This document shows, in pieces, positions 10,600-19,026 of a DNA stretch of 64,000 nucleotides. The DNA is from Marinicauda algicola (GTDB lineage: Bacteria; Pseudomonadota; Alphaproteobacteria; Caulobacterales; Maricaulaceae): assembly GCF_017161425.1 (NCBI RefSeq), contig NZ_CP071057.1, positions 3,163,501 through 3,227,500 of the forward strand. The letters run 5' to 3'. The notes under the pieces are model-generated. The model was not told the origin of the DNA and ran no database searches. It was given only the letters and a program-made list of their open reading frames with translations. Every line of letters begins with the position of its first letter. The first letter of the stretch is position 1. A program made the translations under genes and the position numbers.

Positions 10600-11595
10600 T
10601 CAGGGCCAGATCGCCCAGACATAGGCGAGATAGCCTGCGAACAGGATCGCGCCCTCGATGCGCGAGAGGCGCCGCCCGGTCCACAGCATCGCCAGCAGGA
10701 CGACGGACACGGCGAGCATGACGAAGTTGTCGAACCCGGCGATCGTCTCGGGAACGGGGGTGGGTGAGAGGATCGCGGTCACGCCGCCGATGCCGAGAAT
10801 GTTGTAGATGTTCGAGCCGAGGATATTGCCGATCGCCACGTCGGCCTGGCGACGCATGGCGGCCAGTGCGGAGGTGGCCAGTTCCGGCATCGAGGTGCCG
10901 GCCGCCACGATGGTCAGTCCGATCACGGTCTCGCTGATGTCGAGCGCCTGGGCGAGATCGATCGCACCGCCGACGAAGAAGCGCGAACCGGTGACGAGCA
11001 GGGCGAGCCCTGCGACGGCGAAGGCGAGCGCCTTGACCCAGCGCAGGGGAGATGGGGCCACCCCCGCCCGCGGACGCAGGCCAGGATCGAGCCCCTCTGC
11101 CGCCTCGGCCTTGTCGTAGGCCGCCGTATGGCCGGCCGCGGGCGCCGGCGTGCGCTCCTGGCGCCAGGCATAGACGAGATCGGCGGCGAGCCCGGCGAGG
11201 AAGACCGCCCCGGTCACCCGGTCGAGCGTCCACACGAGCCCGATCCCGGTCAGCAGCAGTGCGGTGGCGATCACGATCCCGGCGTCGCGCTTCAGGGCGG
11301 AGGCGGACACCGCGAGCGGCTGGATCAGCGCCGAGAGGCCGAGGATAACGAGGATGTTGAAGATGTTCGAGCCGACGATGTTGCCGACCGCGATGCCCGG
11401 CGAGCCGGCGATCGCGCCCTGCACGCTCGTCACCAGCTCCGGCGTCGAAGTCCCGAAGCCCACCACGGTCAGCCCGATCAGCAGCGGGGAGACGCCGAAT
11501 CCCTCGGCCAGCCGTGTCGCGCCCCGGATCAGCGCTTCCGCGCCCAGCACGAGAAGGACGAGCCCGCCCAGGATGGCGGCAAGGGTGACGATCAC
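10600..11595 (-). CDS. Calcium/sodium antiporter (CaCA family, YrbG-like)
   Basis: Inner-membrane cation exchanger. Two inverted alpha-repeats are plain: GFGTSTPELVTS with GNIVGSNIFNI in the first half, and AAGTSMPELATS with GNILGSNIYNI in the second. The acidic Glu in each PEL motif is the ion ligand. Ten hydrophobic segments with a charged central loop (about residues 150-185). GTG at 11595 is preferred over an upstream ATG at 11640 because AGGAG lies about 8 nt before it and the membrane helix begins at once. 331 aa, normal length. Confidence 0.92.
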   Translation of the reverse strand: MIVTLAAILGGLVLLVLGAEALIRGATRLAEGFGVSPLLIGLTVVGFGTSTPELVTSVQGAIAGSPGIAVGNIVGSNIFNILVILGLSALIQPLAVSASALKRDAGIVIATALLLTGIGLVWTLDRVTGAVFLAGLAADLVYAWRQERTPAPAAGHTAAYDKAEAAEGLDPGLRPRAGVAPSPLRWVKALAFAVAGLALLVTGSRFFVGGAIDLAQALDISETVIGLTIVAAGTSMPELATSALAAMRRQADVAIGNILGSNIYNILGIGGVTAILSPTPVPETIAGFDNFVMLAVSVVLLAMLWTGRRLSRIEGAILFAGYLAYVWAIWP

Positions 11596-11671
11596 GGGGG
11601 GAGGCTCCTGAAGGCAGCGAAGATATAGAGCATTCCACAAGCGCAGGTCCCGTCAATGATGTTCCGGCACG

Positions 11672-12772
11672 TCATGTTTGCGTCTCCAGCAGCCGGGTCG
11701 GATCCGCGGCCTCCCCCTCGCGCGGCTCCAGCAATGTCAGGGCGAGCGCGATCGTCTTCAGGAGCCGGCGCCGGCCCGTGCGGGCGTAGGCCGAGAGGCA
11801 GGCCTCGGCGAGCTTGATCGCGTGATCGTCGCCATGGACCGCCGCGGCTTCGGCGAGACGGTCCGGCGTGCGGCGGGCCGGGACCGGACGACCGGCGCCC
11901 GGGGCAGGCGGGTAGAACACCGCCTTCAGCGCGCAGCCGGTCTGCCAGGCGCCGGCGATCAGGGCGCGCTGGGCTCCCGGTCCGACGAGCGGCAGGAGAT
12001 TGCGCGCCGCGGCGGCGCCGGTGACGGCATGGGCGAAGACGATCGCCGTGTAGCCGTTGCGTGCCGCGTCCAGGAACAGCTCCGCGAAGGTGCAGACGAG
12101 CGCGTCTGCCGTCGCCAACGGCTCCTCCGACAGGTCGGCCCCGGCGGTCTCGCGCGCGAAGCCGGGTGCGCGGGCGAGATTCGCGAGCCCGGCCGTGATC
12201 GACCCTGCCCTCACCCGCCAGTGCAGCGCGACGGGGGTCACGGCGGCCAGAGCCTCGTGCGGCGGTAGAGTTCCGAAGGCGGGAGCGGGCAGATCGGGCG
12301 CCAGCGGGGCATATCTCGCCGCCCAGACCGCGAGGCCTTGCGCGAGTTCACTGCGCCGCAGCGCCGTGTCCTGCCAGGCGAGCGCGCGGGCGGCATGAGC
12401 CGTGCGGATCACGCCGTGCACGGCCGCCGTGCCATAGCCCGCGGAGAGGCGCCGGGCCCAGCGGTCGAGCGTGGCGCGCCATCCGTTCATCTCGATCTCG
12501 CGCGCGAAGAAGGCGGCCCAGGCCTCGAACCGGGCGGGCTTGCCGAGCGCCTCGCGCCAGCCTGCCGCCCCGATGGGGGGCTGAGCGGGGGCGCGGGGCA
12601 GGAGGTCGTGCTCCTCCGCCCGCAGCCAGCTGAGCGCGGTGTCGCCACGTCCCATCGCGGCGAGCGCCTCCACCACCATCGGGGCGTGGTTGATGAAGCC
12701 GTTGGCCAGGTTCGGCCCGTAGGGACGCAGGACCGCGAGGGCGGCATCGTGGCGGGCATAGGGGTCGGTCAT
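11672..12772 (-). CDS. Questin oxidase-like protein (DUF4243), predicted SoxR target
   Basis: About 366 residues resembling the questin oxidase-like family (PF14027, formerly DUF4243). The fungal prototype GedK cleaves the anthraquinone questin by a Baeyer-Villiger-type reaction. Visible signatures are FINHAPMVVEALAAMG near the N-terminus, GYGTAAVHGVIRTAHAARAL in the middle, and AIVFAHAVTGAAAARNLLP later, which supply conserved His residues. ATG at 12772 follows a GAAGGAAG ribosome site; the upstream extension to 12835 carries an arginine-rich tail and was dropped. It is transcribed away from soxR, and its promoter contains the SoxR box. Substrate in this organism is unknown. Confidence 0.8.
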   Translation of the reverse strand: MTDPYARHDAALAVLRPYGPNLANGFINHAPMVVEALAAMGRGDTALSWLRAEEHDLLPRAPAQPPIGAAGWREALGKPARFEAWAAFFAREIEMNGWRATLDRWARRLSAGYGTAAVHGVIRTAHAARALAWQDTALRRSELAQGLAVWAARYAPLAPDLPAPAFGTLPPHEALAAVTPVALHWRVRAGSITAGLANLARAPGFARETAGADLSEEPLATADALVCTFAELFLDAARNGYTAIVFAHAVTGAAAARNLLPLVGPGAQRALIAGAWQTGCALKAVFYPPAPGAGRPVPARRTPDRLAEAAAVHGDDHAIKLAEACLSAYARTGRRRLLKTIALALTLLEPREGEAADPTRLLETQT

Positions 12773-12849
12773 GGTCGTCTTCCTTCGACAAGCGGTGCGG
12801 CGTGACGCAGCTGCCCTGAGGGCCCGGTCCGTCACGTTGAACTTGTCGG

Positions 12850-12880
12850 AGCCTAATTCCTCAAGCTAACTTGAGGTCAA
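12850..12880 (-). promoter_or_regulatory. SoxR-type promoter and operator for the questin-oxidase-like gene
   Basis: On the minus strand the order is -35 TTGACC (12880-12875), a 19-bp spacer, then -10 TAGGCT (12855-12850). The spacer contains the palindrome CCTCAAGTTAGCTTGAGG (12876-12859 read on the minus strand), which differs by one base from the E. coli soxS SoxR box. The overlong 19-bp spacer is the hallmark of MerR-family activated promoters. The orientation drives the questin-oxidase-like gene. SoxR may also repress itself from the same site. Confidence 0.85.
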
Positions 12881-12902
12881 GCTTCAGAACGGAGAATTTT
12901 CG

Positions 12903-13361
12903 ATGGCCAAGAGCACGCATGACTGGCTGGCGATCGGCGCGCTTGCCCGGCGCACCGGGCTCTCGGTCTCGGCGATCCGCTTCTACGAGGAGAAGGGGCT
13001 CGTCAGCTCGATCCGCAATGCCGGCGGCCAGCGCCGCTTCGCGCGTTCGGACATCCGCCGGCTCTCCTTCGTGCTGATCGCCCAGCAGCTCGGACTGACG
13101 ATCGCGGAGATCCAGGCCGTGCTGGCCGGACTGCCGGAGGGGCGCACGCCGAGCCGGGCGGACTGGGCGCGGATTTCCGCGGCTATCCGGGCCCGCATCG
13201 AGGCCAAGCTCGCGGAGCTGTCGCGCGTGCGCGATCATCTCGACGGCTGCATCGGCTGCGGCTGTCTCTCGCTCGATCTCTGCGCGCTCTACAATCCGGA
13301 CGACCGCGTGGCGCGCAAAGGGGCCGGTCCGCGAATCCTGATGGGCGACCGGGCCGACTGA
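12903..13361 (+). CDS. soxR: Redox-sensitive transcriptional activator SoxR
   Basis: MerR-family activator that senses redox-cycling compounds through a [2Fe-2S] cluster. N-terminal winged helix-turn-helix (IGALARRTGLSVSAIRFYEEKGL, residues 11-33), dimerisation helix, and cluster ligands C116, C119, C121 and C127 in CIGCGCLSLDLC, the exact C-X2-C-X-C-X5-C spacing of SoxR. 152 aa. GGAGA precedes the ATG by 7 nt. It lies divergent from its likely target, with the SoxR box between them. No soxS is present, as usual outside enterics. Confidence 0.96.
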   Translation: MAKSTHDWLAIGALARRTGLSVSAIRFYEEKGLVSSIRNAGGQRRFARSDIRRLSFVLIAQQLGLTIAEIQAVLAGLPEGRTPSRADWARISAAIRARIEAKLAELSRVRDHLDGCIGCGCLSLDLCALYNPDDRVARKGAGPRILMGDRAD

Positions 13362-13401
13362 CTCTGGTGCTCCCCGCCTGGCTTGACTCTCTCACGTTCC
13401 G

Positions 13402-13416
13402 GAACAAAGATAGAAC
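13402..13416 (+). promoter_or_regulatory. Alphaproteobacterial LexA box
   Basis: GAAC-N7-GAAC at 13402-13416, which is the reverse complement of the alphaproteobacterial LexA operator GTTC-N7-GTTC. It lies 36 bp before the imuA start and would place the imuA-imuB-dnaE2 operon under SOS control. Confidence 0.85.
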
Positions 13417-13451
13417 ATCAAGCGAGGAAGCTGGCGAGGAGGACTCATCGC

Positions 13452-14294
13452 ATGGGCCGATCCGACGGCCGCCGCGCTGTTGCAGGCAAAGCCGATCTCG
13501 ACGCGCTGCGCAAGGCGATCGGGGCGCTGGAAGCGACCGGATCGCGCTTTGCCCCGCCGGCCCGTCTGCGTGCGCCGGAGCGCGAAGAGGCGGCGTGCCG
13601 GCAGCTCTGGCGTCAGAGGGGCGCCGGTGAAGCGGACGATCCGCTCGCGCGCTTCCGCGCCCGGCCCGGCCTGCACGAGGTCAAGCCCGCAGCCTATCTG
13701 GACGGCCCGCTCGCCTTCGTCTTCGCCGCGCTCTGGCTTGCCGGGCTCGGCGGGGACCGGCCCATCCTCTGGGTCAGGGGGGCGGGCGATCCGCGGCTCG
13801 ATTTCGGCGGGCCCTGCCCGGACGGGCTCGCGGCCCGCGGGATCGATCCGGCCCGGCTCGTCGCGGTCGCGCCGGGAAAGCCCGCCGACGCGCTCTGGGC
13901 GATGGAGGAAGGGGTGAAGGCGGGCGCGCACGTGCTCGGGGAGGCGGGCGCGAACCCGGCGTGCGACCTGACCGCCACGAAGCGCCTGCACCAGGCGGCC
14001 CTGTCGCGCGGGGGCACGCTCGTGCTCCTGCGCGCCCACGACGTGTGCGGGACGAGCGCGGCCCTGACGCGCTGGTCCGTCGCTCCGGTTCCGAGCGCGC
14101 CGGCGGGCTGGAAGGGTGCGGGCGGCCTGCCCGCACCGGGAGATTTGCGCCTGCGCGCCGTGCTCGAACGCCAGCGCGGCGGGGCGCCCGAAGAGTTCGA
14201 ACTGGATTTCATCCATGACCCGTTTCGCCGCGCTCAGCCTGTCTCGCTGGCCGACCGACCGGCGCCTCTCCAGCGGCGCCGCGAGGCCGGATAG
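13452..14294 (+). CDS. imuA: SOS mutagenesis protein ImuA
   Basis: RecA-like accessory factor of the ImuABC translesion mutasome. It keeps the RecA/SulA-like core pattern (AAYLDGPLAFVFAALWLAGLG, PILWVRG, GIDPARLVAVAP, ALWAMEEGVKAGAHVLGEAG) without a clear Walker A, as expected for ImuA. ATG at 13452 is chosen because GAGGAGG lies about 10 nt upstream; an in-frame ATG at 13383 lies upstream of the LexA box and would put the operator inside the gene. 280 aa. Its end overlaps imuB by 80 bp. Confidence 0.9.
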   Translation: MGRSDGRRAVAGKADLDALRKAIGALEATGSRFAPPARLRAPEREEAACRQLWRQRGAGEADDPLARFRARPGLHEVKPAAYLDGPLAFVFAALWLAGLGGDRPILWVRGAGDPRLDFGGPCPDGLAARGIDPARLVAVAPGKPADALWAMEEGVKAGAHVLGEAGANPACDLTATKRLHQAALSRGGTLVLLRAHDVCGTSAALTRWSVAPVPSAPAGWKGAGGLPAPGDLRLRAVLERQRGGAPEEFELDFIHDPFRRAQPVSLADRPAPLQRRREAG

Positions 14295-15753
14295 CGAGGA
14301 TGCGCCGCTTGTCCTCACCCTCGCCGGAGCGGGCGGGGAGCGGCTGCATGCGCTGACGCAAAATGCCGAGGCCGCCGGTCTCGCACCCGGCATGGGCGTC
14401 GCCGATGCGCGCGCGCTCGCCCCCAGGCTCGTCGCGCAGCCGGCCGATCCCGGTGCCGACCGCGCCGCGCTTGAGCGCCTGGCGCGCTGGTGCGGACGCT
14501 TCTCCCCCTGGACGGCGGCCGATCCGGGCGGGCCGGGCCTTGACGGGGTCCTCCTGGACATCACCGGATGCGCGCGCGTGTTCGGCGGCGAGGACCGGCT
14601 GATGGACCGGCTGGTGCGCGAGGTGCGCGCGCTGGGCCTCGAGGCATCGGCGGCCGCCGCGCCGACGATCGGGCTCGCCTGGGGTCTTTCCCGCTTCGCC
14701 GCGCCGGCGGCTTCGCGCGGCTGGGTGACGGCTGCGGGCGTGCGCGGCGTGCTTGATCCGCTTCCGGTGGAGGCCCTGCGGATCGGGGAGACGGCCGGCA
14801 AGCTCGGACGTTTCGGGCTGAGGCGCTGCGGCGATCTGTTCGCCATCCCCCGCGCCGATCTCGCGAAACGCTTCGGGACCGGTCTCGTGCGCCGGCTCGA
14901 CCAGGCCATGGGAGTGGAGCGCGAGGTCCTCGATCCGCTGCAGCCCAGGGCCGGTCTCAGGGCCCGGATCCGCTTTGCCGAGGCTCACCAGACTCTCGAC
15001 GGGGTGAAGTCCGGCTGCGCCCGGGCGGTCGAGCGATTGTGCAGGGAGCTCGAGCGCGAGAGCCTCGGTCTCACCCGTCTGCGTCTCACGCTCTACCGCG
15101 TGGACGGGCAGGCGCGCGACCTGGTCGTGGGGACCGCGAGGCCGAGCCGCGACCCGGCCCATCTCTCCCGCCTCGTCAGCGAACGCCTCGACCGGGCCGA
15201 GATCGATATCGGCTTCGGCATCGATCTCGTCGAGGCGGCCGCGAGCCTTGCAGGCCCGCTTTGCGGCGAGCAGGCCGATCTCTCGGGGCAAGGGGAGGGA
15301 GAGGCGGGCCTGATGGCGCTCGCCGACCGGCTCACCGCGCGGCTCGGCGAGGGGGCCGTGACCCGGCCCGACCCCGGCGACAGCCACATTCCCGAGCGCG
15401 CCGCCCGCTTCGTGTCCCTCTCGGGCAAGGCTCCGGCCTGGCCGAAGCGGCGCGAGCTGCGCCCGCTCCTGATCCTCGACCGGCCCGAACCCGCCGAGGC
15501 GGTCGCGGAAATCCCCGACGGCCCGCCGCGCCAGTTCACCTGGCGGCGCATCCGGCACCGCGTCGCGCGCGCGGAAGGGCCCGAGCGCATCGCACCGGAA
15601 TGGTGGCGCATGAAGCCGGGCGAGGGGCCGGGGCGCACGCGCGACTATTTCCATGTCGAGACGATGGAGGGCCGCCGCTTCTGGCTCTATCGCGAGGGGC
15701 TCTACGCACGCGAGACTGACCGGCCCTCATGGTTCGTGCACGGGGCGGGGTGA
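14215..15753 (+). CDS. imuB: Inactive Y-family polymerase-like protein ImuB
   Basis: Hub protein of the translesion mutasome that recruits DnaE2 and the beta clamp. It has the Y-family fold (DITGCARVFGGEDRLMDRL, a helix-hairpin-helix-like LGRFGLRRCGDLFAIPRADLAKRFG, then a little-finger region) but lacks the catalytic acidic set of DinB, as is typical of ImuB. The C-terminal domain DYFHVETMEGRRFWLYREGLY is characteristic. ATG at 14215 gives 512 aa and the usual start TRFAALSLSRWPTDR. The 80-bp overlap with imuA suggests tight translational coupling. dnaE2 begins 3 bp later. Confidence 0.93.
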   Translation: MTRFAALSLSRWPTDRRLSSGAARPDSEDAPLVLTLAGAGGERLHALTQNAEAAGLAPGMGVADARALAPRLVAQPADPGADRAALERLARWCGRFSPWTAADPGGPGLDGVLLDITGCARVFGGEDRLMDRLVREVRALGLEASAAAAPTIGLAWGLSRFAAPAASRGWVTAAGVRGVLDPLPVEALRIGETAGKLGRFGLRRCGDLFAIPRADLAKRFGTGLVRRLDQAMGVEREVLDPLQPRAGLRARIRFAEAHQTLDGVKSGCARAVERLCRELERESLGLTRLRLTLYRVDGQARDLVVGTARPSRDPAHLSRLVSERLDRAEIDIGFGIDLVEAAASLAGPLCGEQADLSGQGEGEAGLMALADRLTARLGEGAVTRPDPGDSHIPERAARFVSLSGKAPAWPKRRELRPLLILDRPEPAEAVAEIPDGPPRQFTWRRIRHRVARAEGPERIAPEWWRMKPGEGPGRTRDYFHVETMEGRRFWLYREGLYARETDRPSWFVHGAG

Positions 15754-15756
15754 GCC

Positions 15757-18700
15757 ATGGCCTATGTCGAACTCGCCGCGGCGACGAACTTCTCCTTCCT
15801 GCGCGGCGCGAGCCATCCCCACGAGATGGTCGAGACCGCCAGGGCACTGGGCCTGTCGGCGATCGCCATCACCGACCGCAACACGCTCGCCGGCGTGGTG
15901 CGCGCCCATCTCGCCGCGAAGGAGGCGGGCATCAAGCTCCTCGTGGGCGCACGCCTCGTGACGGTGGAGGGTGTCGAACTCGTCTGCCTGCCGAAGAACA
16001 AGGCGGCCTATGGCAAGCTCTCCCGGCTCCTGACCGACGCCAATTTCCGCGCGCCGGACGAGGCGCGGGAGGGGCGGGTGAGCCTCATGGACGTGGCCGG
16101 AGCTGGACCGGACCAGGTTCTGATCCTCCTGCCGCCGCAGGCCGAGGACGCGCACTGGGTGCGCGAGGCGGAGGCCTTCATCGCCCGGTGCGAAAGCGCG
16201 GTGCATTTCGGCCTCGTGCGCTCGTTCGACGGCGAGGACGGAGCCCGACTTGCCCGGCATGCCGCGCTCGCCGCCCGGCTCGGGATCGAGACCGTGGCCG
16301 TGGGCGATGCGCGCTTCCACCACCCCGACCGCCGGGAAATGGCCGACATCCTCACCTGCATCCGCGAGCACGTGAGGATAGACGCGGCCGGGCGCCGGCT
16401 CGCGGCGAACGCGGAACGCCACCTGAAATCGCCCGCCGAGATGGCCCGGCTCTTCGCCGGCCACGAGGAGGCCGTCGCGCGCTCGGCGGGGCTCGCCGGC
16501 GAGATCGATTTCTCCCTCGACGAGCTGGTCTACGAATATCCCGAAGAGGTGATCGGGGCGGGCGAGACGCCGATGCAGACCTTGCGCCGCCTGACCGAGG
16601 AGGGGCTGAAGCGCCGCTACCCGGATGGCGAGCCGGGCAAGGTCAGGACGGCGGTGGAGTACGAGCTGGGCCTGATCGAGGAGCTGAACTACCCCTCCTA
16701 TTTCCTCACCGTCTACGATCTCGTGCGCTTTGCCCGGTCCAGGGGCATTCTCTGTCAGGGCCGCGGCTCGGCGGCCAATTCCACGGTCTGCTTCGCGCTG
16801 GGCGTGACCGAGGTGGACCCCGCCAGGATCGATCTCCTCTTCGAGCGCTTCGTTTCCGCGGAACGCAACGAACCGCCCGATATCGATGTCGATTTCGAGC
16901 ACGAGCGGCGCGAGGAGGTCATCCAGTACGTCTACGAGAAGTACGGGCGCCGGCGCGCCGGGATGACGGCGGTGGTCAGCTGCTATCGCCCCCGCGGCGC
17001 GATCCGCGAGGTCGGCAAGGTGTTCGGGCTTTCCGGCGACGTCATCGCGGCGCTGTCGAAATCGGTCTGGGGCTGGAAGGAGGCACTCTCCGCCGAGGTC
17101 ATCCGCACCGAGCTCGGCCTCGATCCGGAGAGCCCCGCGCTCGCCCGCACGCTGCACTATGCGCGCGAGCTCCTGAGTTTCCCGCGCCATCTCTCCCAGC
17201 ATCCCGGCGGCTTCGTGATGACGCTGGGCCGGCTCGACGAGATCGTGCCCGTGCGCAAGGCCGCCATGCCCGAACGCACCGCGATCGAGTGGGACAAGGA
17301 GGATATCGAGGCGCTGGGCCTGATGAAGGTCGACGTGCTCGGCCTCGGCATGCTGTCCTGCGTCTCGCGCGCGCTCTCGCTTCTCGAGGAGGGGTATGGC
17401 CGCTCCCTCGCGGTCGCCGACGTGCCGGCCGAGGACCCCCGCGTCTACGACATGATCTGCAAGGCCGACACGATCGGGGTCTTCCAGATCGAGAGCCGGG
17501 CGCAGATGACCATGCTGCCGCGCCTCAAGCCGCGCTGCTTCTACGACCTCGTCATCGAGGTCGCCATCGTGCGTCCCGGCCCCATCCAGGGCGACATGGT
17601 CCATCCCTATCTGAGGCGCCGCGACGGCAGGGAGCGGGTCGAGTTTCCCTCGGAGGAACTGCGCCAGGTGCTCGGCAAGACGCTCGGCGTGCCGCTCTTC
17701 CAGGAGCAGGCGATGAAGATCGCCATCGTCGCGGCCGGCTTTTCGCCTTCGGAGGCCGACAGGCTGCGCCGCTCCATGGCCGCCTTCCGCCGCTCGGGCA
17801 CGATCGCGGAGATGGGCGAGCGCCTGGTGAAGGGCATGATCGCCAACGGCTATGAACGCGATTTCGCCGAGCGCTGCTTTGCCCAGCTCGAAGGCTTCGG
17901 CGAGTACGGCTTTCCCGAGAGCCATGCGGCGAGCTTCGCGCTCATCGTCTATGTCAGCTGCTGGCTCAAGCGCCACTATCCCGACGTCTTCCTCGCCGCC
18001 ATCCTCAACGCCCAGCCGCTCGGCTTCTACGCCCCGGCCCAGCTGGTGCGCGATGCCAGGGAGCACGGGATCGTCGTGCGCCCGGCCGACGTGAACCGGT
18101 CGAACTGGGACTGCACGCTGGAAGACCTCGCTCCCGGCGAGCGGGCCGCGCTCACGCCCGAAGGCGGCGGGGCGAGGGCGGTCCGGCTCGGCCTCAGGCA
18201 GATCAAGGGCCTGTCCGAGGTCACGGCGGCGCGCCTCGTGGCCGCGCGCGAGGAGGGTGGAGCGTTCGCAAGCGTCGAGGACATGGTGCGCCGCGCGAGG
18301 CTCTCGCGCGGCGAGGCCGACCGGCTCGCCCAGGCCGATGCGCTGCGCTCCATGAGGCTCGACCGGCGCGAGGCGGGCTGGAAGGCGCTCGCCCTCCCGG
18401 GCCCCGACCTGCCGCTGTTCGAGGTGGCGGGCGAGGGGCGCTCTTCCGCCTCGCGCCTCGCCGACAGTCACGGTTTCTCGCTGCCCGTCATGAGCCGGTC
18501 CGAGCACGTGGCGCAGGACTATGCCACCACCAGCCTGTCGCTGAAGGCCCATCCGGTGAGCTTCCTGCGCTCCCATTTCGACGAACTCGGCTACCGCTCC
18601 TGCGCCGATCTGAAGACCGCCCGCAACGGCGCGCGCCTGGGCCTGTCGGGGCTCGTGCTGATCCGCCAGCGCCCGGGCACGGCGAGCGGGGTGATCTTCG

Positions 18701-19026
18701 TCACGCTGGAGGACGAGACGGGCGTGGCCAATCTCGTCGTCTGGCCGAAAGTCTTCCAGCGCTTCCGGCGCACCGTGATCGGGGCGAAGCTGATGGGCGT
18801 GGTCGGCCGGGTGCAGCGCGAGGGGGAGGTGATCCATCTCATCGCCGAGCAGCTGATCGACCAGACCCCGCTGCTGTCGCGCCTGACCGGGGGCGAATTC
18901 GCGCCCGCGCTCGCGCGCGCCGACGAGGTGAACCGGTCCAGCGCCGACCAGCGCATGAAGCCGAGGCGGCATGGCGCGCTCGCACCGGCGGGACCGGCGA
19001 TGCCGAAGAGCCGCGATTTCCACTGA
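15757..19026 (+). CDS. dnaE2: Error-prone DNA polymerase DnaE2 (ImuC)
   Basis: C-family polymerase subunit for damage-induced mutagenesis. The PHP domain is at the N-terminus (ELAAATNFSFLRGASHPHEM, AIAITDRNTLAG). The palm has the catalytic Asp pair in PPDIDVDFEHERREEV; QGRGSAANSTVCFALGVTEVDP and SLQHPGGFVM-like motifs (LSQHPGGFVM) are present; an OB-fold lies near the C-terminus (LSGLVLIRQRPGTASGVIFVTLEDETG). At 1089 aa it has the DnaE2 rather than the DnaE1 length. Last gene of the LexA-controlled operon; convergent with the ABC permease gene. Confidence 0.96.
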   Translation: MAYVELAAATNFSFLRGASHPHEMVETARALGLSAIAITDRNTLAGVVRAHLAAKEAGIKLLVGARLVTVEGVELVCLPKNKAAYGKLSRLLTDANFRAPDEAREGRVSLMDVAGAGPDQVLILLPPQAEDAHWVREAEAFIARCESAVHFGLVRSFDGEDGARLARHAALAARLGIETVAVGDARFHHPDRREMADILTCIREHVRIDAAGRRLAANAERHLKSPAEMARLFAGHEEAVARSAGLAGEIDFSLDELVYEYPEEVIGAGETPMQTLRRLTEEGLKRRYPDGEPGKVRTAVEYELGLIEELNYPSYFLTVYDLVRFARSRGILCQGRGSAANSTVCFALGVTEVDPARIDLLFERFVSAERNEPPDIDVDFEHERREEVIQYVYEKYGRRRAGMTAVVSCYRPRGAIREVGKVFGLSGDVIAALSKSVWGWKEALSAEVIRTELGLDPESPALARTLHYARELLSFPRHLSQHPGGFVMTLGRLDEIVPVRKAAMPERTAIEWDKEDIEALGLMKVDVLGLGMLSCVSRALSLLEEGYGRSLAVADVPAEDPRVYDMICKADTIGVFQIESRAQMTMLPRLKPRCFYDLVIEVAIVRPGPIQGDMVHPYLRRRDGRERVEFPSEELRQVLGKTLGVPLFQEQAMKIAIVAAGFSPSEADRLRRSMAAFRRSGTIAEMGERLVKGMIANGYERDFAERCFAQLEGFGEYGFPESHAASFALIVYVSCWLKRHYPDVFLAAILNAQPLGFYAPAQLVRDAREHGIVVRPADVNRSNWDCTLEDLAPGERAALTPEGGGARAVRLGLRQIKGLSEVTAARLVAAREEGGAFASVEDMVRRARLSRGEADRLAQADALRSMRLDRREAGWKALALPGPDLPLFEVAGEGRSSASRLADSHGFSLPVMSRSEHVAQDYATTSLSLKAHPVSFLRSHFDELGYRSCADLKTARNGARLGLSGLVLIRQRPGTASGVIFVTLEDETGVANLVVWPKVFQRFRRTVIGAKLMGVVGRVQREGEVIHLIAEQLIDQTPLLSRLTGGEFAPALARADEVNRSSADQRMKPRRHGALAPAGPAMPKSRDFH

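Follow-up and report, generated by a model that had tools for sequence, protein, structure and literature searches.

In the window, that is the whole stretch of 64,000 nucleotides of Marinicauda algicola DNA analysed here, a soxR gene and the divergent gene of a questin-oxidase-like enzyme probably constitute a detoxification module of one sensor and one effector, in which a dioxygenase of the BTG13/AflY/PaD type would remove a quinone redox cycler. Sequence and structure comparisons established the regulator, its box, the promoter geometry, the fold and ligand set of the enzyme and the evolutionary coupling of the two genes. Direct control of a single modifying enzyme by SoxR is a known kind of regulon, and the PF14027/BTG13-type effector family appears to be undescribed: our literature search found no description of a SoxR regulon with a PF14027/BTG13-type dioxygenase (questin oxidase). 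The same two-gene layout across distant proteobacteria suggests a dedicated destruction of toxic quinones. If this is true, the bacterial members of a large and mostly uncharacterised family would gain a physiological role that can be tested, together with a class of inducers, and ring-destroying dioxygenation would join efflux and tailoring, the known SoxR strategies. Such enzymes might also be useful in breaking down anthraquinone dyes, drugs and toxins.

Table 1. Features of the soxR-dioxygenase locus and its surroundings (positions in the window).
Feature	Position	Strand	Basis or remark
Calcium/sodium antiporter gene	10600-11640	-	TIGR00367
Gene of questin-oxidase-like (PF14027/BTG13-type) putative non-heme iron dioxygenase, 366 aa	11672..12772	-	PF14027, AF2 model
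H317-K320 codons, DDHAIK motif, putative metal ligand and putative carboxylated lysine	11813..11824	-	H317 and K320 invariant
H248 codon, HAVTG motif, putative metal ligand	12029..12031	-	Invariant; aligns with BTG13 H296
H119 codon, AVHGxIR motif, putative metal ligand	12416..12418	-	Invariant; aligns with BTG13 H158
H29 codon, N-H-x-P-M motif, putative metal ligand	12686..12688	-	Invariant; aligns with PaD N-H
SoxR-type promoter of the dioxygenase-like gene	12850..12880	-	TTGACC - 19 bp - TAGGCT
SoxR box CCTCAAGCTAACTTGAGG	12859..12876	.	0 mismatches to CCTCAAGNNNNCTTGAGG
soxR, 152-aa [2Fe-2S] MerR-family redox sensor	12903..13361	+	TIGR01950, 2zhg match
imuA-like, imuB-like (Y-family polymerase, PF00817) and dnaE2-like mutagenesis cassette	13383-19026		Downstream of soxR
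LexA-like site, alphaproteobacterial GAAC-N7-GAAC	13402-13416		In front of mutagenesis cassette

The regulator and the divergent promoter

The product of soxR scores 188.1 bits against the equivalog model TIGR01950 (cut-off 116.9) and matches E. coli SoxR (2zhg) with a phmmer E of 1.4e-38. It also matches PF00376, PF13411 and PF09278, has the MerR-type helix-turn-helix, and carries a cluster motif, CIGCGCLSLDLC, which aligns with that of 2zhg and provides the [2Fe-2S] ligands of the CX2CXCX5C pattern as C116, C119, C121 and C127. The identity of the protein and its cluster ligands, which an earlier note had read from the letters of the DNA, are thereby confirmed, and no other protein of the genome scores above the TIGR01950 cut-off.

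The promoter is directed at the enzyme gene: on the minus strand, TTGACC (12880-12875) and TAGGCT (12855-12850) are separated by the 19-bp spacer TCAAGTTAGCTTGAGGAAT, and the box lies inside this overlong spacer, as in SoxR target promoters. The coordinates agree with the layout described in the earlier note. The -10 hexamer is poor, and a standard promoter scan with spacers of 16-18 returned no match, as expected for a SoxR promoter with a spacer of 19 bp. The claim that the stretch contains no second box also stood, since no other site of the window fully matches CCTCAAGNNNNCTTGAGG and the second-best one, with 3 mismatches, is at chance level; it can even be extended to the 3.42-Mb genome, in which no other site has fewer than 2 mismatches. 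From base composition, about 0.0002 exact matches would be expected per 64 kb and 0.009 per genome. The E. coli box in its printed form, CCTCAAGTTAACTTGAGG (PMC4411124), differs from the Marinicauda box by one base, just as the note had said.

Comparison with known systems places the locus among the SoxR regulons outside the enterics, in which SoxR directly activates enzymes or exporters acting on small molecules (PA2274 and mexGHI in P. aeruginosa, ecaA-D in S. coelicolor, mfsA in S. maltophilia; PMC4146615); it differs from them by its PF14027/BTG13-type effector and by having the sole box of the genome. The layout is that of S. maltophilia mfsA, a divergent target sharing with soxR a box in a 19-bp spacer, where oxidised SoxR activates mfsA in addition to repressing the divergent soxR gene (PMC4411124). 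The overlong spacer and the divergent arrangement are found in E. coli SoxRS as well; however, the AraC-family soxS is missing here and the divergent gene is a PF14027 member, so the response would be a one-step one.

Fold and putative metal site of the enzyme

The enzyme gene likely starts at the ATG at 12772, the alternative being the GTG at 12835, where the longest open reading frame begins. The earlier note had made its reading depend on a profile search, and this search places the protein in PF14027, though weakly: it scores 39.4 bits for a cut-off of 27 and covers only positions 1-132 of the 340 of the profile, so that, judged from Pfam alone, family membership would be thin. The PF14027 model is too insensitive for this branch, with 5 of 398 genomes of the phylum, the corresponding figure for the profile of alignment A4 being 9 of 385 genomes of the class.

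Structure prediction was more informative. The AF2 model, calculated from an alignment of homologues (pLDDT 89, pTM 0.90), gave six Foldseek matches in the PDB with E below 0.001, all from one family: PaD, an AflY-like non-heme iron dioxygenase and BTG13. In VIA-align, the six BTG13, AflY-like and PaD entries reached Z scores of 31.6-34.4 over about 342 residues, the next fold being at 7.3, and the best of them, BTG13 (7y3w), superimposed with a Z of 34.4 over 341 residues, so that the family fold extends over nearly the whole chain. Entries below Z 8 in the VIA and Foldseek results (clamp loaders, helical designs) were discarded as generic helical matches, and two weak matches to plant-pathogen effectors (E 0.27) as due to chance. 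A profile built from 16 diverse bacterial homologues likewise found PaD as its best match (E 2e-15) and BTG13 (E 1e-12), and the ligand motifs coincide in these alignments. The protein is only about 15% identical to the fungal enzymes, a level at which substrate pockets diverge, and this calls for caution regarding a quinone substrate.

The residues H29, H119, H248, H317 and K320 are invariant in the 16 homologues. Four of them align with BTG13, H317 with H374 and K320 with K377 (BTG13 numbers were obtained by counting residues in the profile alignment), and H29 with the N-H of PaD. BTG13 H58, mutated in 7y3x, is probably the equivalent of H29, though the two are not directly aligned. The iron of BTG13 is held by four histidines and the carboxylated Lys377; by analogy, the bacterial enzyme is a putative iron protein with a putative carboxylated lysine. 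Furthermore, T251 aligns with BTG13 T299, the residue mutated in 7y3y.

BTG13, the Cercospora questin oxidase, was presented in a 2024 paper as an atypical non-heme iron dioxygenase which cleaves anthraquinone, according to PMC12186474, where that paper is cited. BTG13 has the same whole-domain fold as the Marinicauda protein, with four of the putative ligands and T251 aligned; it differs by the 15% identity, by its length (about 440 against 366 residues) and by its location in a polyketide cluster, whereas the bacterial enzyme is under predicted SoxR control. The hydroquinone dioxygenase PaD (8z4q) and the AflY-like dioxygenase (8yxs) also present this fold (Z of about 32) and the same motifs, with identities of 16-18% and 15%, respectively.

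Recurrence of the pair and of its box

Close homologues of the enzyme occur in 5 of the 61 genomes of the window's family and order, and all five are divergent from soxR with a box of 0-2 mismatches. A scan of named genomes yielded 13 enzyme loci, nine of them paired with soxR: two Marinicauda species, three records labelled Oceanicaulis, a Maricaulaceae isolate, Sphingomonas changbaiensis, a Pseudomonadaceae MAG and Paraburkholderia aspalathi, whose homologue is only 28% identical. Around the latter, 148 genomes contained 17 with an enzyme match, of which 11 were paired, and one further paired case came from another alphaproteobacterium (G150). In total, 21 distinct genomes carry a divergent soxR-enzyme pair with a box: Maricaulaceae, Sphingomonas, the Pseudomonadaceae MAG, relatives of Paraburkholderia and this alphaproteobacterium. 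The sample is non-random, since many of the pairs were gathered in the neighbourhood of a single Paraburkholderia.

The promoters of the 21 pairs and of one unlinked case (L071/L103) were compared. In all 22, a box is present, the spacer is 19 bp long and the promoter points at the enzyme gene; TTGA of the -35 hexamer is invariant, as is A at position 2 of the -10 hexamer, and T at position 6 is found in 21. The survey that the earlier note had called for thus bears out the conservation of both box and pairing in relatives. In the unlinked case, soxR lies elsewhere in the genome and the box is kept at the enzyme gene, hence it does not serve soxR autoregulation only. Twelve checked genomes with the enzyme gene and without a neighbouring soxR were devoid of any soxR. 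Only G052 combines soxR with a distant enzyme homologue that is unlinked to it and has no box; this genome, and the occurrence of the enzyme gene where soxR is absent, weigh against the module reading.

On the enzyme tree, the label "divergent from SoxR" changes six times, with at least four changes forced by well-supported branches. On the SoxR tree, from which entries with other partners such as ABC transporters had been removed by a motif filter, the SoxR proteins with an enzyme partner belong to two deep clades, and at least three changes are required by well-supported branches. The changes on both trees mean that the enzyme joined or left SoxR control several times.

Other partners of SoxR were found within Maricaulales. 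Among 30 SoxR loci, with partner families called by family models for representatives and by eye for the rest, the divergent gene with the box encodes a VOC/glyoxalase-superfamily protein in 13 or 14, an ABC transporter in 7, the PF14027 enzyme in 3 (5 with two known cases missing from the list), an N-acetyltransferase in 2, an MBL-fold protein in 1 and an FMN reductase in 1, and has no family call in 2. SoxR of Maricaulales seems dedicated to switching a single small-molecule gene, which can be exchanged for another. This agrees with the literature on non-enteric SoxR, according to which it directly controls transporters and enzymes that modify small molecules (PMC4146615). The exchangeable partners in loci L042-L070 include an ABC exporter and an arylamine N-acetyltransferase-like protein with an N-terminal extension. 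The gene divergent from soxR in G403 (L052 130-1437, minus strand) matched no Pfam or NCBIfam model; it carries LTHAPLELAARAGLLPM, which faintly resembles the NHAPMVVEAL motif of the enzyme.

Other arrangements of the enzyme gene were also observed. In two alphaproteobacterial loci (L031, 4247-4933; L077, 762-1430) from genomes without soxR, the homologue faces away from the gene of a SufR-like regulator, in which a CPIC...C...C motif is present; both loci share an upstream palindrome resembling CTTGAATTATTCAAG; the L031 regulator scores 124 bits with TIGR02702, under the cut-off of 178.8. In the related genomes of L078 and L080, the enzyme gene is divergent from that of a protein of ~110 residues resembling DUF1330 or ABM-type monooxygenases.

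Proposed function and genomic surroundings

The mechanism we propose is the following. SoxR would sit on the dyad within the overlong, 19-bp spacer of the promoter. Once its [2Fe-2S] cluster had been oxidised by redox-active compounds such as quinones and phenazines, the protein would distort the DNA and activate transcription of the divergent gene. The product is probably a BTG13/AflY/PaD-type non-heme iron dioxygenase, with four histidines and a carboxylated lysine as the probable iron ligands. With O2, it would cleave or otherwise modify a quinone ring, either in the quinone itself or in the corresponding hydroquinone or anthrone, and the redox cycler would thereby be removed. Regulation of the enzyme gene by SoxR is very likely on comparative grounds, because the pairing recurs, the box is kept when soxR is unlinked and 12 checked genomes without the pair lack soxR; the redox activation in vivo and the class of substrate are what we infer beyond this. 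The earlier suggestion of a sensor directly inducing a quinone-destroying enzyme is strongly supported in its regulatory half, through the 22 promoters and the distant lineages, and gains support from fold and ligands for its enzymatic half, the quinone itself being the part that we infer. Streptomyces SoxR answers quinones such as actinorhodin and plumbagin and not paraquat (PMC5288332), so paraquat may be the wrong first inducer here too.

Cleavage of a quinone or hydroquinone by a non-heme iron dioxygenase is our best guess for the function, as judged from sequence and the structural model. The main competing reading keeps SoxR control and assigns to the enzyme a non-quinone substrate, another redox-active or electron-rich ring such as a phenazine, a hydroxypyridine or a flavin- or melanin-like pigment. 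We regard it as a possible, clearly less probable explanation. The involvement of a bacterial DUF4243 domain in the biosynthesis of minimycin, which is not a quinone (PMC8724604), implies that the substrates of the questin-oxidase family are wider than quinones, SoxR answers chemically diverse agents (PMC5288332), and the identity to the quinone enzymes is low. However, the annotation of each of the three solved relatives found is that of a quinone- or hydroquinone-type dioxygenase or of a non-heme iron dioxygenase, and the ligand motifs are kept together with the counterpart of BTG13 T299.

Two other readings seem very improbable to us. One box between divergent genes autorepresses soxR in Stenotrophomonas and E. 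coli (PMC4411124), and the layout might mainly serve this autoregulation, the enzyme being an incidental neighbour that SoxR does not activate; against this highly unlikely scenario stand the 19-bp-spaced hexamers directed at the enzyme in every promoter compared, the box kept in the unlinked case and the recurrence of the pairing on both trees. It is just as hard to believe that the enzyme makes or tailors a redox-active metabolite of the host, with SoxR as a feedback sensor in the way of actinorhodin in Streptomyces: the fungal homologues are indeed biosynthetic and SoxR of S. coelicolor has targets similar to the tailoring enzymes of actinorhodin (PMC4146615), yet the pair has no polyketide or phenazine genes next to it and lies between an Na/Ca exchanger and the mutagenesis cassette, and the surroundings vary among relatives while the pair persists.

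Beyond the single locus, we give an even chance to a broader proposal, namely that the bacterial questin-oxidase branch is a widespread, inducible system of detoxification by quinone or hydroquinone ring cleavage under iron-sulfur sensors, SoxR repeatedly and SufR-like proteins in others. This branch would then parallel the four-histidine/carboxylated-lysine iron dioxygenases, which to our knowledge have so far been known from the anthraquinone and aflatoxin pathways of fungi.

As for the immediate surroundings, the antiporter gene starts about 30 bp past the dioxygenase gene on the same strand, and no terminator was predicted between them; co-transcription of the two is possible. In M. pacifica (L004/L030), a different neighbour takes the place of the antiporter, and in M. 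salina (L003), the imuA-like and imuB-like genes appear to flank the soxR-enzyme pair. Elsewhere in the genome (G000:C1:1860738-1860755), tandem TCAAG-cgacc-TTGAC palindromes (CGTCAAGGTCGCTTGACG and its neighbours) look like the operator of another regulator.
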